64,000 bases of DNA from Amniculibacterium aquaticum (GTDB lineage Bacteria > Bacteroidota > Bacteroidia > Flavobacteriales > Weeksellaceae). This document shows, in pieces, positions 126-48,106 of the stretch. Position numbers and translations under genes: made by a program. The stretch's first letter is position 1. Each line of letters starts with the position of its first letter. Under the pieces are notes generated by a model. The model was not told where the DNA came from and made no database searches. It saw only the letters and a program-made list of their open reading frames with translations. The stretch covers positions 1 through 64,000 of the forward strand of contig NZ_REFA01000009.1 in assembly GCF_003852705.1 (NCBI RefSeq), written 5' to 3'.

Positions 126-422
126 ATGAAAAATTTAGCTTTAGGACTGTTACTAACGGTCGGTACAGCAACAAGTGTGTTTGCTGGAAAAATAGAGGAA
201 AAAGAAGTAATTAAAAGTGTGTCTATGGAAAAGGACTGTATCACATATCAACTTAAATCTTCATGTAATCCAAATGTTACGGATTATGATACGATTTGTT
301 ATGGAGGAAACACGGGGATTACAATACAACAAGCACAACAATGCATGATTGAAAATATGGATATGTATCATGAAGCAGCTTGCAGAAAGGTCAAATCTGA
401 ACTGATACAAGACATTAATTAA
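126..422 (+). CDS. Small secreted protein paired with a GLPGLI protein
   Basis: A 98-residue protein of unknown function. The chosen ATG begins a clear signal peptide (Lys at position 3, hydrophobic core, probable cleavage after SVFA near residue 21); an in-frame ATG 36 bases upstream would add a hydrophobic, phenylalanine-rich stretch in front and is less likely. The mature part is about 77 residues, charged, with five Cys, so disulfides are possible after export. The gene ends 23 bases before the GLPGLI gene at 446, so the two probably form one transcript. The same arrangement (small secreted protein, then GLPGLI protein) recurs at 45401-46604 and 46761-47871, but the mature sequences share no obvious similarity. 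No known domain was recognised. Confidence 0.7.
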   Translation: MKNLALGLLLTVGTATSVFAGKIEEKEVIKSVSMEKDCITYQLKSSCNPNVTDYDTICYGGNTGITIQQAQQCMIENMDMYHEAACRKVKSELIQDIN

Positions 423-445: not shown

Positions 446-1255
446 ATGAAGAAGATTCAAGTTTACTTATTATTCGCATTCGTACTGATATCTGGTGTTT
501 TGTATTCACAAAAAATAGATAGTACTTATATGGTTTGTTATTACAAAATGACTTTTCAAAAAGATTCTACCAATCCAAAGTCCAAATACGAAGAACTCAC
601 CGTATTGAAAATAGGTAAAGAATCTTCTATTTTTAGGAGCTATGTAAAAGAGAAGAGTGACTCAATTATCGCAGATCAGGTCAAAAAAGTTTTTGAAAAG
701 GGTTCTAGCGGAGGTATCGCAACATACGATGCAGGAGCAGTTCCTCAATACGATTTTAAACCCGAAGTGTACAGAAATGGGAATAAAATTACTGTTTTTG
801 AGAGGGTAGGAATGGATCGCTTCGCTTTTGAATCTCAAGAAAATATTAAATGGAAATTGCTAAATGAGGAACGGAAAATCTCGAATTTTATTTGCAAAAA
901 AGCCATTGGAAAATACCGCAATAGAACTATTATTGCTTGGTATACTAATGAAATGAATATACCGGAAGGACCTTATAATTTCAAGAATTTACCAGGTCTG
1001 ATTATAGAATTACAAGATGATAAAGATACGATTCATTTTACATTAGCCGGGTTGAAAAAAATGAAACTTCCCATTGAGCAGAAAATGAATGGTATTTACC
1101 TTACCACTTATGAAAAGTTTAAAAGAAATAGAGAAGAGTTTGCAAAAGACCCTATATCTAAATTAGCAAATACGCGAATGTTTAAGTTTCTTACTCATGA
1201 AGATCGAGAAAATTTGTCTAAATCTCTTAAAAGTGAAAACAACCATTTGGATTAA
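446..1255 (+). CDS. GLPGLI family protein
   Basis: A 269-residue exported protein of the Bacteroidetes GLPGLI family, whose function is not established. An N-terminal signal peptide (residues 1-21, ending near VLYSQ) is followed by a beta-rich body. The family signature appears as NLPGLI at about residues 181-186, preceded by the usual pattern of a Lys-Ala near IGKYRNR, an aromatic Ala-Trp-Tyr-Thr strand and a P-x-G-P segment. The related proteins at 45759 and 47077 have the exact GLPGLI motif. It follows a small secreted protein by 23 bases. Location is probably periplasm or outer membrane surface. Family assignment is firm; role is unknown. Confidence 0.85.
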   Translation: MKKIQVYLLFAFVLISGVLYSQKIDSTYMVCYYKMTFQKDSTNPKSKYEELTVLKIGKESSIFRSYVKEKSDSIIADQVKKVFEKGSSGGIATYDAGAVPQYDFKPEVYRNGNKITVFERVGMDRFAFESQENIKWKLLNEERKISNFICKKAIGKYRNRTIIAWYTNEMNIPEGPYNFKNLPGLIIELQDDKDTIHFTLAGLKKMKLPIEQKMNGIYLTTYEKFKRNREEFAKDPISKLANTRMFKFLTHEDRENLSKSLKSENNHLD

Positions 1256-32700: not shown

Positions 32701-33254
32701 ATAAAAAACCTTGGTTATCTTATGACAACCAAGGTTTTTTTGTGAAAAGCATTTTTAAATTCAGATTTTGTAAAAGTATTTTTTTTAAATAGATACTCAC
32801 AGATTCAGAAAAGTCCCGTAGGGACGGAGCTGTTAATAGAAAATGAGTGTGTGTGTAAGTTAAGCTCTGTAGGAGCGACCTCATTTTAATGCTGAACTCT
32901 TTAACAGGTCGCTCCTACGGAGCTTTCCAAAATCAACCTATCCATGCCTTTGCTCCTTCGGAGCTAAAACTAGCACTAAAAACCTTCTCAATGTGTCTCG
33001 TTTTAAGAATAAAGTGACGGAGATTTTCGTCCGTTCGAGTAGGATTTTTATGAAGTGAAACGAGATAAAAAATCTGTATCGAGAACGGTTAAACCAAAAC
33101 TTCTCGATACGCATGGCTAAAGCTTTGTTGAACGGATTTGAAACTGAGAATTTATGATGTTGAATTTAATTTTCACAAAATCAATGTGTTAAAAATAGTT
33201 AAATGTTTATTTTGTTTCGTGAAAAACTTGCATAATTTTAATTTTAATTTTAGA
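32701..33254 (+). repeat. Composite repeat, copy 1 (hairpins plus promoter block)
   Basis: First of three copies (others at 35264-35829 and 37678-38025). In order: a terminator-like hairpin AACCTTGG / CCAAGGTT with a T tail (32703-32741); a small GTCCC-GTA-GGGAC palindrome; a long inverted repeat AAGCTCYGTAGGAGCGACCT / AGGTCGCTCCTACGGAGCTT (32862-32881 and 32906-32925, one mismatch); GCTCC-TTC-GGAGC; a TATCGAGAA / TTCTCGATA hairpin; and an AT-rich promoter-like block ending in TTTTA repeats just before the next gene. Together with the element at 32505 this accounts for the gap 32439-33277. Confidence 0.75.
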
Positions 33255-33277
33255 CATTAATAATAAAAATCATAATC

Positions 33278-35263: not shown

Positions 35264-35829
35264 ATAAAAAAAACCTTGGTTATCTTATGACAACCAAGGT
35301 TTTTTGTGAAAAGCATTTTTAAATTCAGATTTTGTAAAAGTATTTTTTTTAAATAGATACTCACAGATTCAGAAAAGTCCCGTAGGGACGGAGCTGTTAA
35401 TAGAAAATGAGTGTGTGTAAGTTAAGCTCCGTAGGAGCGACCTCGTTTTAATGCTGAACTCTTTAATAGGTCGCTCCTACGGAGCTTTCCAAAATCAACC
35501 TATCCATGCCCTATTAACAGTTTGCTCCTTCGGAGCTAAACTAGCACTAAAAACCTTCTCAATGTGTCTCGTTTTAAGAACAAAGTGACGGAGATTTTCG
35601 TCAGTTCGAGTAGGATTTTTATGAAATGAAACGAAATAAAAAATCTATATCGAGAACGGTTAAACCAAAACTTTTCGATACACTTCGCTAAAGCTTTGTT
35701 GAACGGATTTGAAGCTGAGAATTTATGATGTTGAATTTAATTTTCACAAAATCAATGTGTTAAAAATAGTTAAATGTTTGTTTTGTTTCGTGAAAAACTT
35801 GCATAATTTTAATTTTAATTTTAGACATT
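35264..35829 (+). repeat. Composite repeat, copy 2
   Basis: Second and full copy, filling the gap between the two T9SS paralogues. The long inverted repeat AAGCTCCGTAGGAGCGACCT / AGGTCGCTCCTACGGAGCTT is perfect here (35424-35443 and 35468-35487, 24-base spacer). The terminator-like hairpin is at about 35270-35306. The promoter-like block (about 35755-35829: GTGTTAAA, GTTAAAT, TTTTGTTTC, AACTTGCATAATTTTA) precedes the ATG at 35851. It includes TTTG / 18 nt / TAATTTTA. Confidence 0.8.
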
Positions 35830-43267: not shown

Positions 43268-43573
43268 ATGTCACAAAGAATCAGAATAAAACTAAAATCT
43301 TACGATTACAATTTGGTAGATAAATCTGCTGAGAAAATCGTAAAAACTGTAAAGGCAACCGGAGCTGTAGTAAACGGACCAATCCCATTGCCAACCCACA
43401 AGAGAATCTTTACTGTACTAAGATCTCCGCATGTTAACAAGAAAGCAAGAGAGCAGTTCCAATTATCAGCTCACAAGAGATTGATGGACATCTACTCTTC
43501 TTCTTCCAAAACGGTTGATGCTCTAATGAAGTTAGAACTTCCTTCTGGTGTAGAAGTAGAAATCAAAGTGTGA
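43268..43573 (+). CDS. rpsJ: 30S ribosomal protein S10
   Basis: A 101-residue uS10 protein, also the NusE transcription factor partner. [69 protein letters not shown] and the C-terminal VEVEIKV are normal. In most bacteria it is directly followed by rplC; here a terminator follows within 50 bases and rplC lies 4.5 kb away. The last 132 bases of the gene are duplicated at 45074-45205. Confidence 0.98.
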
Positions 43574-43619
43574 TAACCAGGGCTTAGGCCTTAACAAAGC
43601 ATTTTGCTAGTATATGAAC

Positions 43620-43654
43620 TCCCTTTTCTTAATTGAAAAGGGAATTTTTATTTT
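43620..43654 (+). terminator. Terminator after rpsJ
   Basis: Stem TCCCTTTTC / GAAAAGGGA (43620-43628 and 43635-43643) with a T-rich tail. It ends the str operon here. Confidence 0.85.
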
Positions 43655-43710
43655 CATAAAAGTGTTAAATTCTGTTAAATTCAATTGTTTTTCACACAAA
43701 AACTTGCACA

Positions 43711-43746
43711 GTTTTAGTTTTAGTTTTAGTTTTAGTTTTAGTTTTA
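43711..43746 (+). repeat. Tandem hexamer GTTTTA x6 in a promoter/leader
   Basis: Six perfect GTTTTA units, 27 bases before the lipoprotein ATG. Each junction reads TAGTTTTA, one base off the -7 consensus TAnnTTTG. The same array has 5 units at 45343 and 3 units at 46715. Confidence 0.9.
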
Positions 43747-43772
43747 GTAGCACTAATTAAAAAAAATCGAAT

Positions 43773-44768
43773 ATGAAAAAGTTTGTTTTGTATTTTTCAT
43801 TGGTGCTACTATTTATAAATTGTAGTACTAATTCTGTAGAAGAAATTTCAGATGGTATTCCAAACGAAATTTCGATGTATAGAACGATGAGTAATCAGTC
43901 TGAAAATGCTTTGAATTACGAAGTAAGCGACGAACAATTTGTTTTGAGGCTTTATTCTGATATTGATGGAAGTGAATTTAAAAGTATAGTAGAGGTTTTG
44001 TCTGTTGTTAATGATAGTGCAAAACTTTTTGAATTAGATTATACTTTTGACACTTCTGAAACCCATTGGAAAATTAAGCAAAAAGAAAGAGTTCTTGCAT
44101 TAGCAGACAATTTGCGAGAAAAAAATATTGATATTGGAGTTTTAAGAGATTTGTCCGAATTTATTGATGGGTATGTTCTGGCGATATATCAAAAGTCTGT
44201 TGTTGATGGAGGAAAAAATGTTGATTTATTTTCATCTATATATTATTATCAATCAAGTATTGATGCCCTAGTGAGAGCAGAAAATTCAAATAGTCCTTTA
44301 AATGGAACCCTACACCCTGGTTTTTTAGCAGGCAAAGATTTTTTTGTGTTTCAAGAGGATCAGTTCATTGACTTAAGTTTAGTTGATTTGAGCACACTTA
44401 ATAATTATATTCATAGCACTAAAGATGAAAATTTGAAAGAATTTATTAAAAGTAATAGTATGTCTAAAGTACCATTTACTGTAATAAATGAATTTTATGG
44501 TAGTGCGGCAGAATTTGAAAACTTTATTGAAAATGTTCAATACCAACCTATGGGGTGTTCCAGTTGGTGTTTTATTGGATGTGGATCAGATACGGGTTGC
44601 TGTGGAAATTATTCAGGATGTTGTGTTTATTCTTCTTTAGCGTGTTATGTTCATGATGTTCAATGTGCTTCTTGTATACCGCCTAAAGGACTTCCATCCT
44701 GGTATTGCGGACCTGGCTGTAAACCCGGTCTAGGAAAACCAGTTAAGATAATAACTAATATCATTTAA
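43773..44768 (+). CDS. Lipoprotein with a Cys-rich C-terminal domain
   Basis: A 331-residue predicted lipoprotein (MKKFVLYFSLVLLFINC, Cys17). Residues about 30-260 are helical and charged, with no recognised domain. The C-terminal 70 residues hold 12 Cys in GCSSWCFIGCGSDTG, CCGNYSGCC, LACYVHDVQCASC and YCGPGC. The CYVHDVQC pattern (Cys three before a His-Asp pair, Cys three after) resembles the CCxxHDxC catalytic segment of phospholipase A2-type folds. That is a suggestion, not an identification. The gene is followed by a small membrane protein 11 bases later and is flanked by direct repeats of the rpsJ 3' end. Confidence 0.75.
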   Translation: MKKFVLYFSLVLLFINCSTNSVEEISDGIPNEISMYRTMSNQSENALNYEVSDEQFVLRLYSDIDGSEFKSIVEVLSVVNDSAKLFELDYTFDTSETHWKIKQKERVLALADNLREKNIDIGVLRDLSEFIDGYVLAIYQKSVVDGGKNVDLFSSIYYYQSSIDALVRAENSNSPLNGTLHPGFLAGKDFFVFQEDQFIDLSLVDLSTLNNYIHSTKDENLKEFIKSNSMSKVPFTVINEFYGSAAEFENFIENVQYQPMGCSSWCFIGCGSDTGCCGNYSGCCVYSSLACYVHDVQCASCIPPKGLPSWYCGPGCKPGLGKPVKIITNII

Positions 44769-44779
44769 ATTGATTAATA

Positions 44780-45061
44780 ATGGAAAAGTTTCATAAAATT
44801 ATCATAGTAGTAAGTTTGCTAGTTCTTATTAATATTATTTTGCAAGCGTATTATTTCTATCAAAATAAATTAGGAAATGAAATTGCAGATGCATTAATGC
44901 AAGCAATTACATTTCTTGCAAATTTTAATTTTATTACAGTTTTAATTCTACCCTTTTTATTAATGATTTATTCTATAATAGCAATGGTTCAAAAAAGAAA
45001 ATATGGAATTATTTTACTCTTGATTAATATTTGTAATTGTGTGCTGATTTTTTTTACATAA
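44780..45061 (+). CDS. Small membrane protein, unknown function
   Basis: A 93-residue protein with three hydrophobic stretches (IIIVVSLLVLINIILQAYYF, FNFITVLILPFLLMIYSIIAMV, GIILLLINICNCVLIFF). It begins 11 bases after the Cys-rich lipoprotein gene, so it is probably co-transcribed with it. A partner, processing or protection role for the lipoprotein is possible but not shown. Very AT-rich compared with the ribosomal genes around it. Confidence 0.65.
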   Translation: MEKFHKIIIVVSLLVLINIILQAYYFYQNKLGNEIADALMQAITFLANFNFITVLILPFLLMIYSIIAMVQKRKYGIILLLINICNCVLIFFT

Positions 45062-45073
45062 TTCATAAATAAT

Positions 45074-45205
45074 AAAGCAAGAGAGCATTTCCAATTATCA
45101 GCTCACAAGAGATTGATGGACATCTACTCTTCTTCTTCCAAAACGGTTGATGCTCTAATGAAGTTAGAACTTCCATCTGGTGTAGAAGTAGAAATCAAAG
45201 TGTGA
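45074..45205 (+). pseudogene. Duplicated 3' fragment of rpsJ
   Basis: The last 43 codons and stop of rpsJ, in frame but without a start (stop codons directly upstream). It differs from the parent by two base changes in the coding part, one of them giving His for Gln (REHFQLS for REQFQLS). It is the coding part of the 300-base direct repeat and marks an insertion or duplication endpoint. Confidence 0.9.
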
Positions 45206-45251
45206 TAACCAGGGCTTAGGCCTTAACAAAGCATTTTGCTAGTATATGAAT

Positions 45252-45286
45252 TCCCTTTTCTTAATTGAAAAGGGAATTTTTATTTT
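45252..45286 (+). terminator. Terminator, duplicate of the rpsJ terminator
   Basis: Same stem as at 43620 with one base change (stem TTCCCTTTTC / GAAAAGGGAA) and the same T tail. It can end the lipoprotein/membrane protein transcript. Confidence 0.8.
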
Positions 45287-45342
45287 CATAAAAGTGTTAA
45301 ATTCTGCTAAATTCAATTGTTTCTAACACAAAAACTTGCACA

Positions 45343-45372
45343 GTTTTAGTTTTAGTTTTAGTTTTAGTTTTA
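45343..45372 (+). repeat. Tandem hexamer GTTTTA x5 in a promoter/leader
   Basis: Five perfect units, followed directly by CCTCATTAAC, the start of the leader that can pair with the start codon at 45401. Confidence 0.9.
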
Positions 45373-45406
45373 CCTCATTAACAAATAAAAACAAAAAGTT
45401 ATGAGG
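45373..45406 (+). promoter_or_regulatory. Leader hairpin covering the start codon
   Basis: CCTCAT (45373-45378) and AAC (45380-45382) are complementary to GTT (45398-45400) and ATGAGG (45401-45406), with one bulged T and a 15-base A-rich loop. The start codon would lie in the stem. The same leader occurs at 46733-46766. Confidence 0.55.
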
Positions 45407-45718
45407 AAATTATTTTTAGTAGCAGCCCTAGGAGTTGCTGGATTGATGAGTGCAAAAGAACAAATTGTAAAAAACATTTGTATGATAAGTTCTGAAAGCG
45501 TTATCGAATCAGAAAGCATGAATACATTGTTGGTAGAGGGGCATACTTGGATTGCAATTGATTCTGGCTGTGGACAACAGTATTTTTTGGATCTGAATCA
45601 TTATTCTGATGATGTGGCAGGTTTGAAAGCATTTCAAGATGATATAGCTTTTTTTAGTGAGCAGAAATGTAGGGGAGCGCAGGCCGCCGCTAACCAACAA
45701 TCCAGCAGTTTTGTTTAA
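45401..45718 (+). CDS. Small secreted protein paired with a GLPGLI protein
   Basis: A 105-residue exported protein. The first 20 residues (beginning MRKLFLVAALGVAG) form a signal peptide identical to that of the protein at 46761; the mature parts are unrelated. Mature sequence has three Cys, an acidic core (HTWIAIDSGCGQQYFLDLNHYSDD) and a Gln/Ala/Ser-rich tail. Function unknown. It is the first gene of a pair with the GLPGLI gene 40 bases downstream. Its promoter/leader block, hexamer repeat and start-codon hairpin are shared with the next module. Confidence 0.75.
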   Translation: MRKLFLVAALGVAGLMSAKEQIVKNICMISSESVIESESMNTLLVEGHTWIAIDSGCGQQYFLDLNHYSDDVAGLKAFQDDIAFFSEQKCRGAQAAANQQSSSFV

Positions 45719-45758
45719 TTTCTGTATATCAATATATTAATAATCTAGTTTGTTTTTC

Positions 45759-46604
45759 ATGAAATATAGTATTGTAATTTTTACTTTTATATCAACCTTA
45801 TTACTTTCTCAAGAAGTCAAATTTTCTAAAGTATTTAAACTAAATAAGAATGATAATGCAAGTAAGCTGTTTGAAAACAGTGATATAAATATCTATTATG
45901 AATTCTCGAGTAATGATAAGGATAATTCATCAGGAAAAACATACAAATCCATCTGTGTTTTGCAAAAAGGACATAATTTTTCTAAGTTTGTAGATGTTGA
46001 AAAGCTTAAGTCGGACTCTCTAACCCAAGTGTTTTCGCAACAAGGTTACGCAGGTGCAAAAGAAGTTAACCAATTGCTTCGCCATAAGCCATTATGGTCT
46101 GGGATTGTTTTGAAAAAATCTAAAAATGATAGTTTAGTTAGGCAAAATTTAGTTGCAAGTAAGATTTGTCAATATGAAGAAATTCCGCCTCGTTTGGATT
46201 GGAAGCTTGTAAATGAAACAAAAGATGTTCTTGGATATCCGTGTAGAAAAGCAACAGTAACCTATCGAGGAAGGTATTATACAGCATGGTACACTAATAA
46301 ACTTGCTTTAAATGACGGTCCATATATTTTTAAAGGTCTTCCTGGTTTAATTCTGGAGATTGAAGACGCAGACCAATATATTCATTTTAAAGCCATAGGA
46401 ATTGATAAAAAGGCTACGATGATTTTTCTAGATAATTCCAGTATATTAATAAAAACAACAAGAGAAAAATGTCGCAAATTTCAGGAAAACTATTTTTATA
46501 ATCCGGGTGCATTTACGCAGGGTAAAGCATATAATGTAGATGGTACTCTTTTTGTCCCAAGGGCAATAACGGATAAAAAATACAATCCAGTGGAATTGGA
46601 ATAG
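45759..46604 (+). CDS. GLPGLI family protein
   Basis: A 281-residue exported protein of the GLPGLI family. The ATG at 45759 gives the signal peptide MKYSIVIFTFISTLLLSQ. A reading that begins with TTG nine bases upstream is unlikely. The signature GLPGLI is at residues 193-198, followed by LEIED as usual, and preceded by CRKATVTYRGRYYTAWYTNKLALNDGPYIF. Second gene of its module. Family function unknown. Confidence 0.85.
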   Translation: MKYSIVIFTFISTLLLSQEVKFSKVFKLNKNDNASKLFENSDINIYYEFSSNDKDNSSGKTYKSICVLQKGHNFSKFVDVEKLKSDSLTQVFSQQGYAGAKEVNQLLRHKPLWSGIVLKKSKNDSLVRQNLVASKICQYEEIPPRLDWKLVNETKDVLGYPCRKATVTYRGRYYTAWYTNKLALNDGPYIFKGLPGLILEIEDADQYIHFKAIGIDKKATMIFLDNSSILIKTTREKCRKFQENYFYNPGAFTQGKAYNVDGTLFVPRAITDKKYNPVELE

Positions 46605-46626
46605 AAAATTGATTTTTTTATATTTG

Positions 46627-46658
46627 AAAAATCTCCTTGCAGGTCGAGGAGATTTTTT
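46627..46658 (+). terminator. Terminator after the second GLPGLI gene
   Basis: Stem AAAAATCTCCT / AGGAGATTTTT (46627-46637 and 46647-46657) and T. Confidence 0.8.
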
Positions 46659-46714
46659 CATTAAAATGTTAAACTTTGTTAAAGTCCATCGTTTTTCACA
46701 CAAAAACTTGCACA

Positions 46715-46732
46715 GTTTTAGTTTTAGTTTTA
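46715..46732 (+). repeat. Tandem hexamer GTTTTA x3 in a promoter/leader
   Basis: Three units in the otherwise same block as at 43711 and 45343, followed by the same CCTCATTAAC leader. Confidence 0.9.
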
Positions 46733-46760
46733 CCTCATTAACAAATAAAAACAAAAAGTT

Positions 46761-47069
46761 ATGAGGAAATTATTTTTAGTTGCAGCCCTAGGAGTTGCTG
46801 GATTGATGAGTGCAAAAGAGAAAAGTACTTTATTGTTACCCAAAAACTTTTCGGTATCAAACACTCAATTAAAATTAAATAAATTAGCACCACCATTAGA
46901 AGGTAGATATATTCGGGTTACCATAAAAACAACATGTGGTAAAGAGTTTTCACAGATAATGTGGTTCGATACCGATCCGGATCAAGCGTATTATGAGTAT
47001 TTAGGAAATATGATAAATTTTTCTCTTTGTGGTCCCGTAGATGAAGATATAGTATGGGATATCAATTAA
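46761..47069 (+). CDS. Small secreted protein paired with a GLPGLI protein
   Basis: A 102-residue exported protein whose first 20 residues match the protein at 45401 exactly. The mature part differs: basic and hydrophobic start (KSTLLLPKNFSVSNTQL), then RYIRVTIKTTCGKEFSQIMWFDTDPDQAYYEYLG, two Cys. A GLPGLI gene starts 7 bases after its stop. Such a conserved leader with a variable payload suggests module shuffling or diversifying selection. Function unknown. Confidence 0.75.
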   Translation: MRKLFLVAALGVAGLMSAKEKSTLLLPKNFSVSNTQLKLNKLAPPLEGRYIRVTIKTTCGKEFSQIMWFDTDPDQAYYEYLGNMINFSLCGPVDEDIVWDIN

Positions 47070-47076
47070 AATATAT

Positions 47077-47871
47077 ATGTACAAAATTGTTTTATTATTT
47101 CTTTTTTTTAGTTTAAACTTTGTAGTTGGGCAGGGTTTTCAATCAGAATTTAGGGCGAATTACAGAATGACCTACATCTTAGACTCCTTAACTAGAAAGG
47201 CTAAAGTTGAAGATTTTAAACTGTTTTTTAATAGAAATCAGTCGTATTTTTTGTCCGATAAAAGTATTCTTTCAGACTTTTATGAAGTTAAAGGTGAAGT
47301 GTTAGACATGAAGCAGTTGCAAAGTAAAAGAACACTGTTTTTAGATCGGATTAGCTATGATGCTACCAAAAAAGATTTTTCAGTTTATTTGAACGAAGGT
47401 AAAACATACTATAAATATAAACAAAATGCTGAGCTGATTTGGAATATTACAAACGAAACCAAAACCATTAATAATATCGTGTGTAAAAAAGCAACCACTG
47501 CAGCTTTTGGGAGAAAATGGATTGCTTATTTTTCTACCGATTATACTTTTCCATTTGGCCCTTTCAAAATAAATGGACTTCCTGGACTTATAGTTTCTGT
47601 CGAAGACGATAGAAAAACCATTCGTTTTGTGTTGGATGAAATTGAAAAGCATCATAAGTTTATCCAAATTCCATCAAATGTCAAAGCGGTTTCCAAAGAG
47701 CAGTATTTTAAGTTGTATGATAATTTGGTATTCAATCTTAGCATTCTTAACCATGTTACTTTTGTTGAAGATCCGAGTTTTAAACAAAAATTAATCAATT
47801 CTGTCATGGAGAGAAAACGGATGATGAACAATTTCCCAATGGATCTGGATATGAAATCCATTATGAAATAA
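47077..47871 (+). CDS. GLPGLI family protein
   Basis: A 264-residue exported family member with signal peptide MYKIVLLFLFFSLNFVVGQ and GLPGLI at residues 167-172 in KINGLPGLIVSVEDDRKTIRFV. Upstream are NIVCKKATTAAFGRKWIAYFSTDYTFPFGPF, the usual family strands. It is the last gene of the accessory insert before rplC. The three GLPGLI proteins of this window are clearly different from one another outside the signature region, so they are old paralogues or were gained separately. Confidence 0.85.
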   Translation: MYKIVLLFLFFSLNFVVGQGFQSEFRANYRMTYILDSLTRKAKVEDFKLFFNRNQSYFLSDKSILSDFYEVKGEVLDMKQLQSKRTLFLDRISYDATKKDFSVYLNEGKTYYKYKQNAELIWNITNETKTINNIVCKKATTAAFGRKWIAYFSTDYTFPFGPFKINGLPGLIVSVEDDRKTIRFVLDEIEKHHKFIQIPSNVKAVSKEQYFKLYDNLVFNLSILNHVTFVEDPSFKQKLINSVMERKRMMNNFPMDLDMKSIMK

Positions 47872-47968
47872 TCCCCCAATCAATATTCAATATCGAGTTA
47901 TGGCCATTTGTAATGAATGGTCTTTTTTTTCTTTAAACCCCTCATTTTCAAATTATTTTTCAAGAAAA

Positions 47969-47999
47969 TTTGCAGTTTACAAAAATCTTCATATATTTG
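47969..47999 (+). promoter_or_regulatory. Promoter of the rplC (S10/spc/alpha) operon
   Basis: -33 TTTG (47969-47972), exactly 19 bases, then -7 TATATTTG (47992-47999): a full consensus Bacteroidetes promoter. It gives the rplC operon independence from rpsJ. Confidence 0.75.
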
Positions 48000-48026
48000 C
48001 ACACTCATTTTAGGGGTATGGTGTGC
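47999..48026 (+). promoter_or_regulatory. Hairpin in the rplC leader
   Basis: GCACAC (47999-48004) pairs with GTGTGC (48021-48026) near the expected 5' end of an about 100-base leader. It could be part of a ribosomal-protein autoregulatory site; this is an inference. Confidence 0.35.
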
Positions 48027-48106
48027 CTAATTCAACCTTAGAAATCACGAATGACTTCAGAGAAATGAGCATTAAAAAGATAAATTTTATATATATTTTA
48101 TAAACA

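Follow-up and report, generated by a model that had tools for sequence, protein, structure and literature searches.

In a 64,000-nucleotide stretch of the Amniculibacterium aquaticum genome (Weeksellaceae; contig NZ_REFA01000009.1, positions 1 to 64,000; hereafter the window), a gene for a small secreted protein is followed directly by a gene for a GLPGLI protein in three places. We propose, with a probability of roughly one half, that such a module is a cassette encoding a bacteriocin-like exported peptide and its cognate GLPGLI immunity or binding protein; the peptide would be toxic, and the GLPGLI protein would bind it and confer immunity. To our knowledge, no function has been assigned to the GLPGLI family. 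In the mechanism that we envisage, the module would be an exchangeable, probably phase-variable two-gene cassette. Its first gene would encode a peptide precursor composed of an export leader (usually Sec, sometimes double-glycine), an often disordered linker, and a Cys-containing core of about 40 residues, and its second gene a matching GLPGLI protein with a Sec leader of its own. The exported core would most likely be a bacteriocin-like effector aimed at relatives that lack the module, while the cognate GLPGLI protein would bind the core in the periplasm and so protect the producer.

Payload types are followed by GLPGLI genes

The original prediction, made from the window alone, described three pairs of a small secreted protein and a GLPGLI protein. 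All three are present (Table 1), with intergenic gaps of 23, 40, and 7 nucleotides (nt) for the pairs starting at 126, 45401, and 46761, respectively, and the larger members all exceed the curated TIGR01200 cut-off of 50 bits. None of the three small proteins scored above any Pfam or NCBIfam cut-off. Signal peptides were called throughout with a heuristic of our own.

Profiles built from the mature parts only (the payloads) were searched in 296 genomes of one family. The type B payload, that of the 45401 protein, gave 43 matches in 36 of these genomes and eight genera, and a GLPGLI gene lies directly downstream of 38 of the 43; one of the remaining five (L363) is apparently a false match. The type A payload gave 24 matches in 22 genomes and 14 genera, with a downstream GLPGLI gene in 23 of the 24. 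Two tandem GLPGLI genes were found in 19 of these 23 loci (L300-L323), the second copies sitting in other GLPGLI clades. A relative of the type C protein at 126 was found in another genus (L126), where a GLPGLI gene also follows directly. Across the order, 395 genomes from 109 genera were sampled, and type B was found in seven, all from the same family and none from outside it; this search scored at most 17 candidates per genome, and some matches may be missed. A scan of named genomes returned two loci, both from one metagenome-assembled genome.

Clustering of the mature parts of 85 pairs gave types B (27), A (19), F (5), D (4), E (4), G (3), and C (2), plus singletons; the clustered types are small proteins without an obvious surface anchor. 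Among 25 type B rows, C57, G58, and Y68 are invariant and C90 is nearly so. The AlphaFold model built from these rows has a mean predicted local distance difference test score (pLDDT) of 67.8, with block means of 90-94 for residues 51-90 and values below 50 for residues 18-44. It predicts a disulfide core of two strands and a helix (beta-beta-alpha), in which the hairpin bears C57 and the helix C90. By our reading of its pattern only, type A may have the same layout. The best Foldseek match of the type B peptide in the PDB had an E-value of 2.8; no fold match was found there, which is not proof of a new fold.

Payload and GLPGLI protein co-diverge

The relationship between the two partners was analyzed by Mantel comparison and on a rapidly built tree (LG+G4) of 117 GLPGLI proteins, which comprised 73 partners, 25 unpaired proteins, and 19 second copies. 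Of the 85 pairs, 73 entered the tree and 67 the Mantel comparison, which also omitted six double-glycine rows. The 12 pairs left out of both were truncated genes, lipoproteins, Cys-free proteins, and unlikely frames; three of them (L245, L233, and L215) are small secreted proteins of a different look. A single supported clade of 28 rows, to which GLPGLI protein 1 of the window belongs, holds 25 of the 27 type B partners. Two of its three other rows (L289 and L284) actually follow a type B small gene that is broken or lacks a clear start and was missed by the scan; the third (L128) stands behind an esterase-like open reading frame (ORF). Payload labels required 37 changes on the tree, against a shuffled mean of 76.3 (0 of 200 shuffles that low), and types A, B, F, and G clustered clearly. 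For the 67 Sec-leader pairs, similarity between mature parts correlated with GLPGLI similarity at r = 0.86, compared with 0.36 for the leaders; within types, the values for mature part and leader were 0.76 and 0.34 (A) and 0.85 and 0.64 (B). Co-divergence of the payload with its own GLPGLI protein is therefore supported for the large payload types. Together with the adjacency counts and the cassette behavior described below, it upholds the proposal that the pair is a functional unit.

Units are replaced behind copied leaders

As originally noted, the last two pairs of the window have nearly identical promoters, leaders, and first residues. Positions 45354-45464 and 46714-46824, which cover promoter and signal peptide, are 97% identical over 111 nt; residues 1-20 of the two small proteins are the same, and one silent difference was found among the 18 leader codons. 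DNA identity is 97-100% from -40 to +50 of the start codon and then falls to chance level, the loss coinciding with the end of the signal peptide. The pair at 126 has an unlike leader and lacks the hexamer promoter. The mature parts had been called unrelated, which holds in that no whole-sequence likeness was detectable between the 45401 and 46761 proteins; however, a common strand-[ST]xCG...C pattern was seen by eye, and the 45401 payload represents a well-defined family.

A step in DNA identity at or inside the leader was found in 11 of 13 paralogue comparisons from four genomes and two genera (in p77-p79, the early step reflects a length difference in the leader). The two exceptions (p51-p53 of G007 and p3-p39 of the A. 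aquaticum genome) showed a gradual fall or less similar leaders. In ten of the paralogue pairs with a step, comparison of the leaders gave 0-2 differences at 10-15 silent sites and 0-3 replacements, and the scarcity of silent differences indicates recent copying of the leader DNA. An identity of at least 85% in leader DNA was shared by 9 of 99 pairs with different payloads in the same genome, by 2 of 1684 with different payloads in different genomes, and by 11 of 419 with the same payload in different genomes.

The ratio of replacement to silent polymorphism (pN/pS) over 11 orthologue comparisons, some of which have sequences in common, was 0.18 for the core, 0.21 for GLPGLI, 0.33 for the leader, and 0.58 for the linker. 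A hypervariable payload arising through fast mutation was thus rejected, as no other part of the precursor is as constrained as the core. Given the step at the leader, the recent leader copying, and the constrained core, diversity seems to arise from replacement of the whole payload and GLPGLI unit behind resident promoter and leader DNA, with the payload itself conserved. The original view of a module that is copied and diversified is not supported in that wording, the exchange of cassettes behind copied leaders taking its place; the comparison of substitution rates that it called for, between signal peptide and mature part, did not reveal a fast-diverging payload.

Decay was also one-sided. 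Among 61 modules with a GLPGLI gene, seven have a defective small gene beside a full-length or nearly full-length GLPGLI gene: it is interrupted in L276, L289, L297, and L313 and lacks a recognizable leader in L294, L315, and L362. No intact small gene beside a clearly broken GLPGLI gene was found among the 61. Four loci with unclear starts (L284, L308, L309, and L316) and one at a contig end (L354) were set aside. The loci were found via the small gene, so the search bias works against this result. One-sided decay is a prediction of an effector-immunity pair, although the count is small.

The same payload carries two kinds of export leader

Both the GLPGLI and the small proteins usually carry Sec leaders. 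Nevertheless, a double-glycine-type leader directly precedes the type B core in nine loci (L287, L289, L291, L292, L293, L296, L298, L356, and L358). Of five tested, three (L287, L291, and L298) passed NF047798 (leader_Chryseo), an NCBIfam model for a "bacteriocin-like protein" with an 18-residue double-glycine leader, and L292 and L296 scored 23.3 bits, 0.2 short of the cut-off of 23.5. At least four NF047798 matches are type B modules with GLPGLI (G218:C6, G268:C1:1334080, G216:C111:923637, and G056:C1:3125927). The model covers only the leader domain and is shared by some type B payloads; the copies in the window have Sec leaders, and no match was found among the small proteins of the window or elsewhere in the A. 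aquaticum genome. On a careful tree of the type B GLPGLI clade, three changes between Sec and double-glycine leaders were mapped, two of them with good support (L298 with L297, 100/99; L291, L287, and L289 with L295, 99/97) and one on a weaker branch (87/76). The linker before the type B core is usually long in Sec versions and absent from double-glycine versions, which points to the core as the probable active part.

It should be noted that NF047798 has 27-64 matches per genome in seven genomes (G041, G056, G073, G107, G216, G218, and G268), some of which stand in tandem with differing Cys-rich cores. C39 peptidase matches away from the modules number 2-3 in each of five genomes with double-glycine type B modules, one of them a weak fragment. 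In genomes with Sec versions only, there were none in G007 and G015 and 1-4 in A. aquaticum, G001, G002, G265, and G168.

Many module promoters contain variable tandem repeats

A 20-mer composed of TTGCAYAG and at least two TTTTAG units was searched in eight genomes. It was found at 15 sites in seven of the eight, covering all five genera, and the reversed control gave none. Twelve sites precede GLPGLI modules, two precede the lipoprotein-like gene that starts at 43773 and its counterpart in G001, a sister genome, and the remaining one precedes a lipoprotein-like ORF in C1. Other modules have upstream T tracts or TTTTAGA, TTTA, or TAT repeats, and the G002 relative of the 45401 module (L354) has TTTTAA units instead of TTTTAG. 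Overall, short tandem repeats were present in 32 of 71 module promoters. The controls gave 7 of 245 genes (the lipoprotein gene that has a module-type promoter accounts for two of the seven), 7 of 97 genes with a signal peptide, and 12 of 702 in a broader set. A resampled null of 19.7 of 71 was trained on the repeat-rich sequences themselves and was not relied upon.

Repeat number differs among paralogues (2-6 hexamers, T9 versus T16 in C15, and one versus four heptamers). Bacteroidota promoters have a -33 TTG and a -7 TAnnTTTG element, and judged by this consensus the repeats fall in the spacer between them. Promoter tandem repeats that differ between copies, a hallmark of contingency loci, are thus present, one genome per species having been compared, suggesting that the module promoters are phase-variable; we infer the switching itself from the repeats. 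Literature searches on phase variation with Flavobacterium or Bacteroidetes promoters returned nothing to the point among the matches listed. Of note, promoter-like stretches with TTTTAA repeats at 33222-33269 and 35793-35823 precede two regions in which long ORFs for secreted proteins share near-identical C-termini.

The GLPGLI fold resembles a PNGase F-II domain

The AlphaFold model of the GLPGLI protein at 45759-46601 (73 rows) has a pLDDT of 92.6 and a predicted template modeling score of 0.87. Its best PDB matches were the N-terminal domains of PNGase F-II (Z 16.0) and of a Bacteroides PNGase (Z 14.7), followed by an uncharacterized Thermus protein (Z 9.8). LolA, VioE, EPDR1, LolB, and RseB gave Z-scores of 6-9.4, values near 8 being weak according to the tool's note. 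The GLPGLI sequence profile also matches PNGase F-II (E 1e-6), and PF22252 (PNGase F-II N-terminal domain, cut-off 27.6 bits) was passed by two of the three GLPGLI proteins of the window (446-1255, 29.3 bits; 45759-46604, 36.8 bits), with no match for 47077-47871. The predicted fold is therefore akin to the N-terminal bowl domain of PNGase F-II, with a moderate match to LolA-type proteins. Unlike PNGase F-II, the module protein lacks a catalytic domain, and its partner is a small exported peptide. A cup of the LolA kind would be apt for peptide binding, although a fold proves nothing. A report on the Bacteroides PNGase terms its N-terminal domain unique and its function not known (PMC9522356), and GLPGLI genes are listed among those altered in a Riemerella phoP mutant (PMC9603813).

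An insertion hot spot between rpsJ and rplC

The 45401 and 46761 modules are placed between rpsJ and rplC. This interval (window 43574-48106) was inspected in 59 genomes (L111-L168), with rplC reached in 38 and not in 21. The rpsJ-rplC distance is 76-534 nt in 13 genomes and 1.3-10.5 kb in 25. GLPGLI ORFs in the interval or, in genomes where rplC lay beyond the stretch inspected, at most about 5.5 kb from rpsJ were found in 18 of the 59, a count that excludes L138, in which the match is 10 kb away. Across the family, this junction is a hot spot for insertions. In the window, the 3' end of rpsJ and the region following it are repeated 1632 nt downstream (Table 1). In the sister genome G001, identity with the window is 98% as far as the repeated rpsJ tail extends; other cargo follows, and identity resumes (89%) just before rplC; this pattern suggests import by recombination anchored in rpsJ.

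Partial duplications of the rpsJ 3' end around inserted cassettes were also seen in G001, with equal spacing, and in G048, from another genus. The lipoprotein-like ORF at 43773-44768 adjoins a gene for a 93-residue membrane protein, and a 98% identical region is present in G001.

Table 1 Features of the modules and their surroundings in the window
Feature	Position	Strand	Remarks
Pair 1 small secreted protein, payload type C	126..422	+	98 aa
Pair 1 GLPGLI protein	446..1255	+	269 aa; TIGR01200 E 3e-43, 148 bits
Promoter of the module type before lipoprotein-like gene	43704..43748	+	6.5 repeat copies
Lipoprotein-like ORF with Cys-rich C-terminus and hexamer promoter	43773..44768	+	331 aa; no family above cut-off
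Second copy of 43436-43735: rpsJ 3' end and following region to promoter	45068..45367	+	97% identity
Module promoter TTGCACAG with hexamer repeat	45336..45372	+	5.2 copies by TRF
Small secreted protein 1, payload type B	45401..45718	+	105 aa
Predicted Sec signal peptide of small protein 1 (constant leader)	45401..45454	+	Heuristic cleavage site; common to the 46761 copy
Predicted payload core of small protein 1, about residues 50-90	45548..45670	+	Two strands and helix; C57, C90
GLPGLI protein 1, partner of small protein 1	45759..46604	+	281 aa; TIGR01200 E 2e-48, 165 bits
Module promoter TTGCACAG with hexamer repeat	46708..46732	+	3.2 copies
Small secreted protein 2, leader as in protein 1, different payload	46761..47069	+	102 aa
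GLPGLI protein 2	47077..47871	+	264 aa; TIGR01200 E 3e-37, 129 bits

Proposed bacteriocin-like cassettes and alternative explanations

Several observations weigh against an effector-immunity cassette. An upstream small partner is not general among GLPGLI genes. Eight genomes sampled in full contain 138 GLPGLI genes, and under a strict rule (ATG start, leader, 55-130 residues, at least two Cys, and no longer ORF intervening) a partner was found at just 31 of these, the rate ranging from 11 of 27 in A. aquaticum to 0 of 17 in G003. The rule undercounts, as about 14-15 of the 28 GLPGLI genes in the 2.5 Mb A. aquaticum genome follow a small signal-peptide ORF by eye. Because of the strict-rule count, the small partner is a minority trait of GLPGLI genes, while the reverse association is nearly obligatory. 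Four double-glycine type B loci from one lineage (L357 and L364-L366) have no downstream GLPGLI gene, and L284 combines a short GLPGLI gene with a doubtful small-gene start. Types D (four rows) and C (two rows) did not cluster on the GLPGLI tree. The modules share ancestry, and the tree, Mantel, and Fisher tests treat them separately, so that independence is overstated.

Export raises further difficulties. None of the 30 best double-glycine loci from seven genomes has a GLPGLI gene directly downstream (two neighboring matches, L330 and L341, have one upstream); a general pairing of double-glycine proteins with GLPGLI was thus rejected, and the leader alone does not predict the pair. No dedicated C39 exporter was found beside the module when 18 kb around five double-glycine modules were searched. 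With nothing but a Sec leader, the peptide would stay in the periplasm of the producer, and no route for its release is known. Toxicity, binding, and immunity themselves are what we infer from the genes.

Instead of being toxic, the small protein might serve the GLPGLI protein as a ligand, subunit, or cargo, for example in a LolA- or RseB-like periplasmic carrier or sensor complex, the module then serving an envelope function. The likeness to the PNGase F-II domain and, moderately, to LolA, LolB, and RseB agrees with this, as do the usual Sec leaders, with which both proteins would meet in the periplasm, and the co-divergence, which suits any binding pair. Modules that have lost the small gene but kept an intact GLPGLI gene, the clear reverse of which was not seen, and the repeated use of double-glycine export leaders fit less well, and cassette swapping is typical of conflict systems. 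We regard this alternative as a real possibility, about half as probable as its opposite. A further alternative, which we consider improbable, is that the modules encode variable factors, secreted or on the cell surface, for encounters with phages, predators, or hosts, with variety rather than toxicity selected. It would account for the promoter repeats, the paralogues with near-identical leaders, and the hot-spot location; but purifying selection on the core within a type is unlike an antigen, and the clustered types have no obvious surface anchor. Finally, the minority of GLPGLI genes with a small neighbor could hint at chance neighbors or unexpressed frames. This is very improbable, since none of 44 control genes for secreted proteins had such a neighbor under the strict rule, and the reciprocal searches and the purifying selection on the core contradict it, as they do the suspicion that the partners are unrelated, non-expressed frames.

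The cassette explanation can be compared with known systems. Class II bacteriocins, including Sec-dependent members of class IIa, come with immunity genes and use Sec and double-glycine leaders within one group (PMC3546714), and the modules likewise combine a conserved leader of either kind with a short Cys-containing core. They differ in that no known relative of the core family was found, the partner is a GLPGLI protein of 260-280 residues with a signal peptide, no exporter lies in the module cluster, and the modules are known here from genes alone. The SitA/SitI cassettes of myxobacteria (PMC5562445) resemble the modules in their polymorphic, envelope-targeted product, downstream immunity gene, and several alleles per genome. 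They differ in that each SitA is a lipoprotein whose C-terminus carries a toxin domain (in one case a predicted tRNase) and which moves by outer membrane exchange; the comparison is by description, with no homology claimed. The likeness to toxin or bacteriocin cassettes drawn in the original prediction is thus strengthened by double-glycine leaders on type B payloads in other genera, while the toxic action stays conjectural. No description of a small-peptide/GLPGLI pair was found in the literature searched, outside which lay most subscription papers and all bioRxiv preprints; searches on GLPGLI family accessions, the Chryseobacterium "bacteriocin-like protein", and Bacteroidetes double-glycine leaders likewise returned nothing, and one on double-glycine bacteriocins of Chryseobacterium brought up work on graspetides and microviridins.

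A wider generalization has, in our view, somewhat less than an even chance of holding: GLPGLI proteins would include a periplasmic immunity or receptor scaffold for undescribed polymorphic, phase-variable exported disulfide peptides, whose cassettes would cross species with conserved genes such as rpsJ as homology arms, enter behind a resident promoter and leader, and be able to switch between Sec and double-glycine export. The tight, co-diverging exported partner makes GLPGLI function testable by a single co-purification or competition experiment, and the change of leader on a payload that is otherwise conserved amounts to a natural experiment in export. The modules might yield new antibacterial peptides; they also offer a lead to the role of an unexplained family whose genes are numerous in these bacteria.

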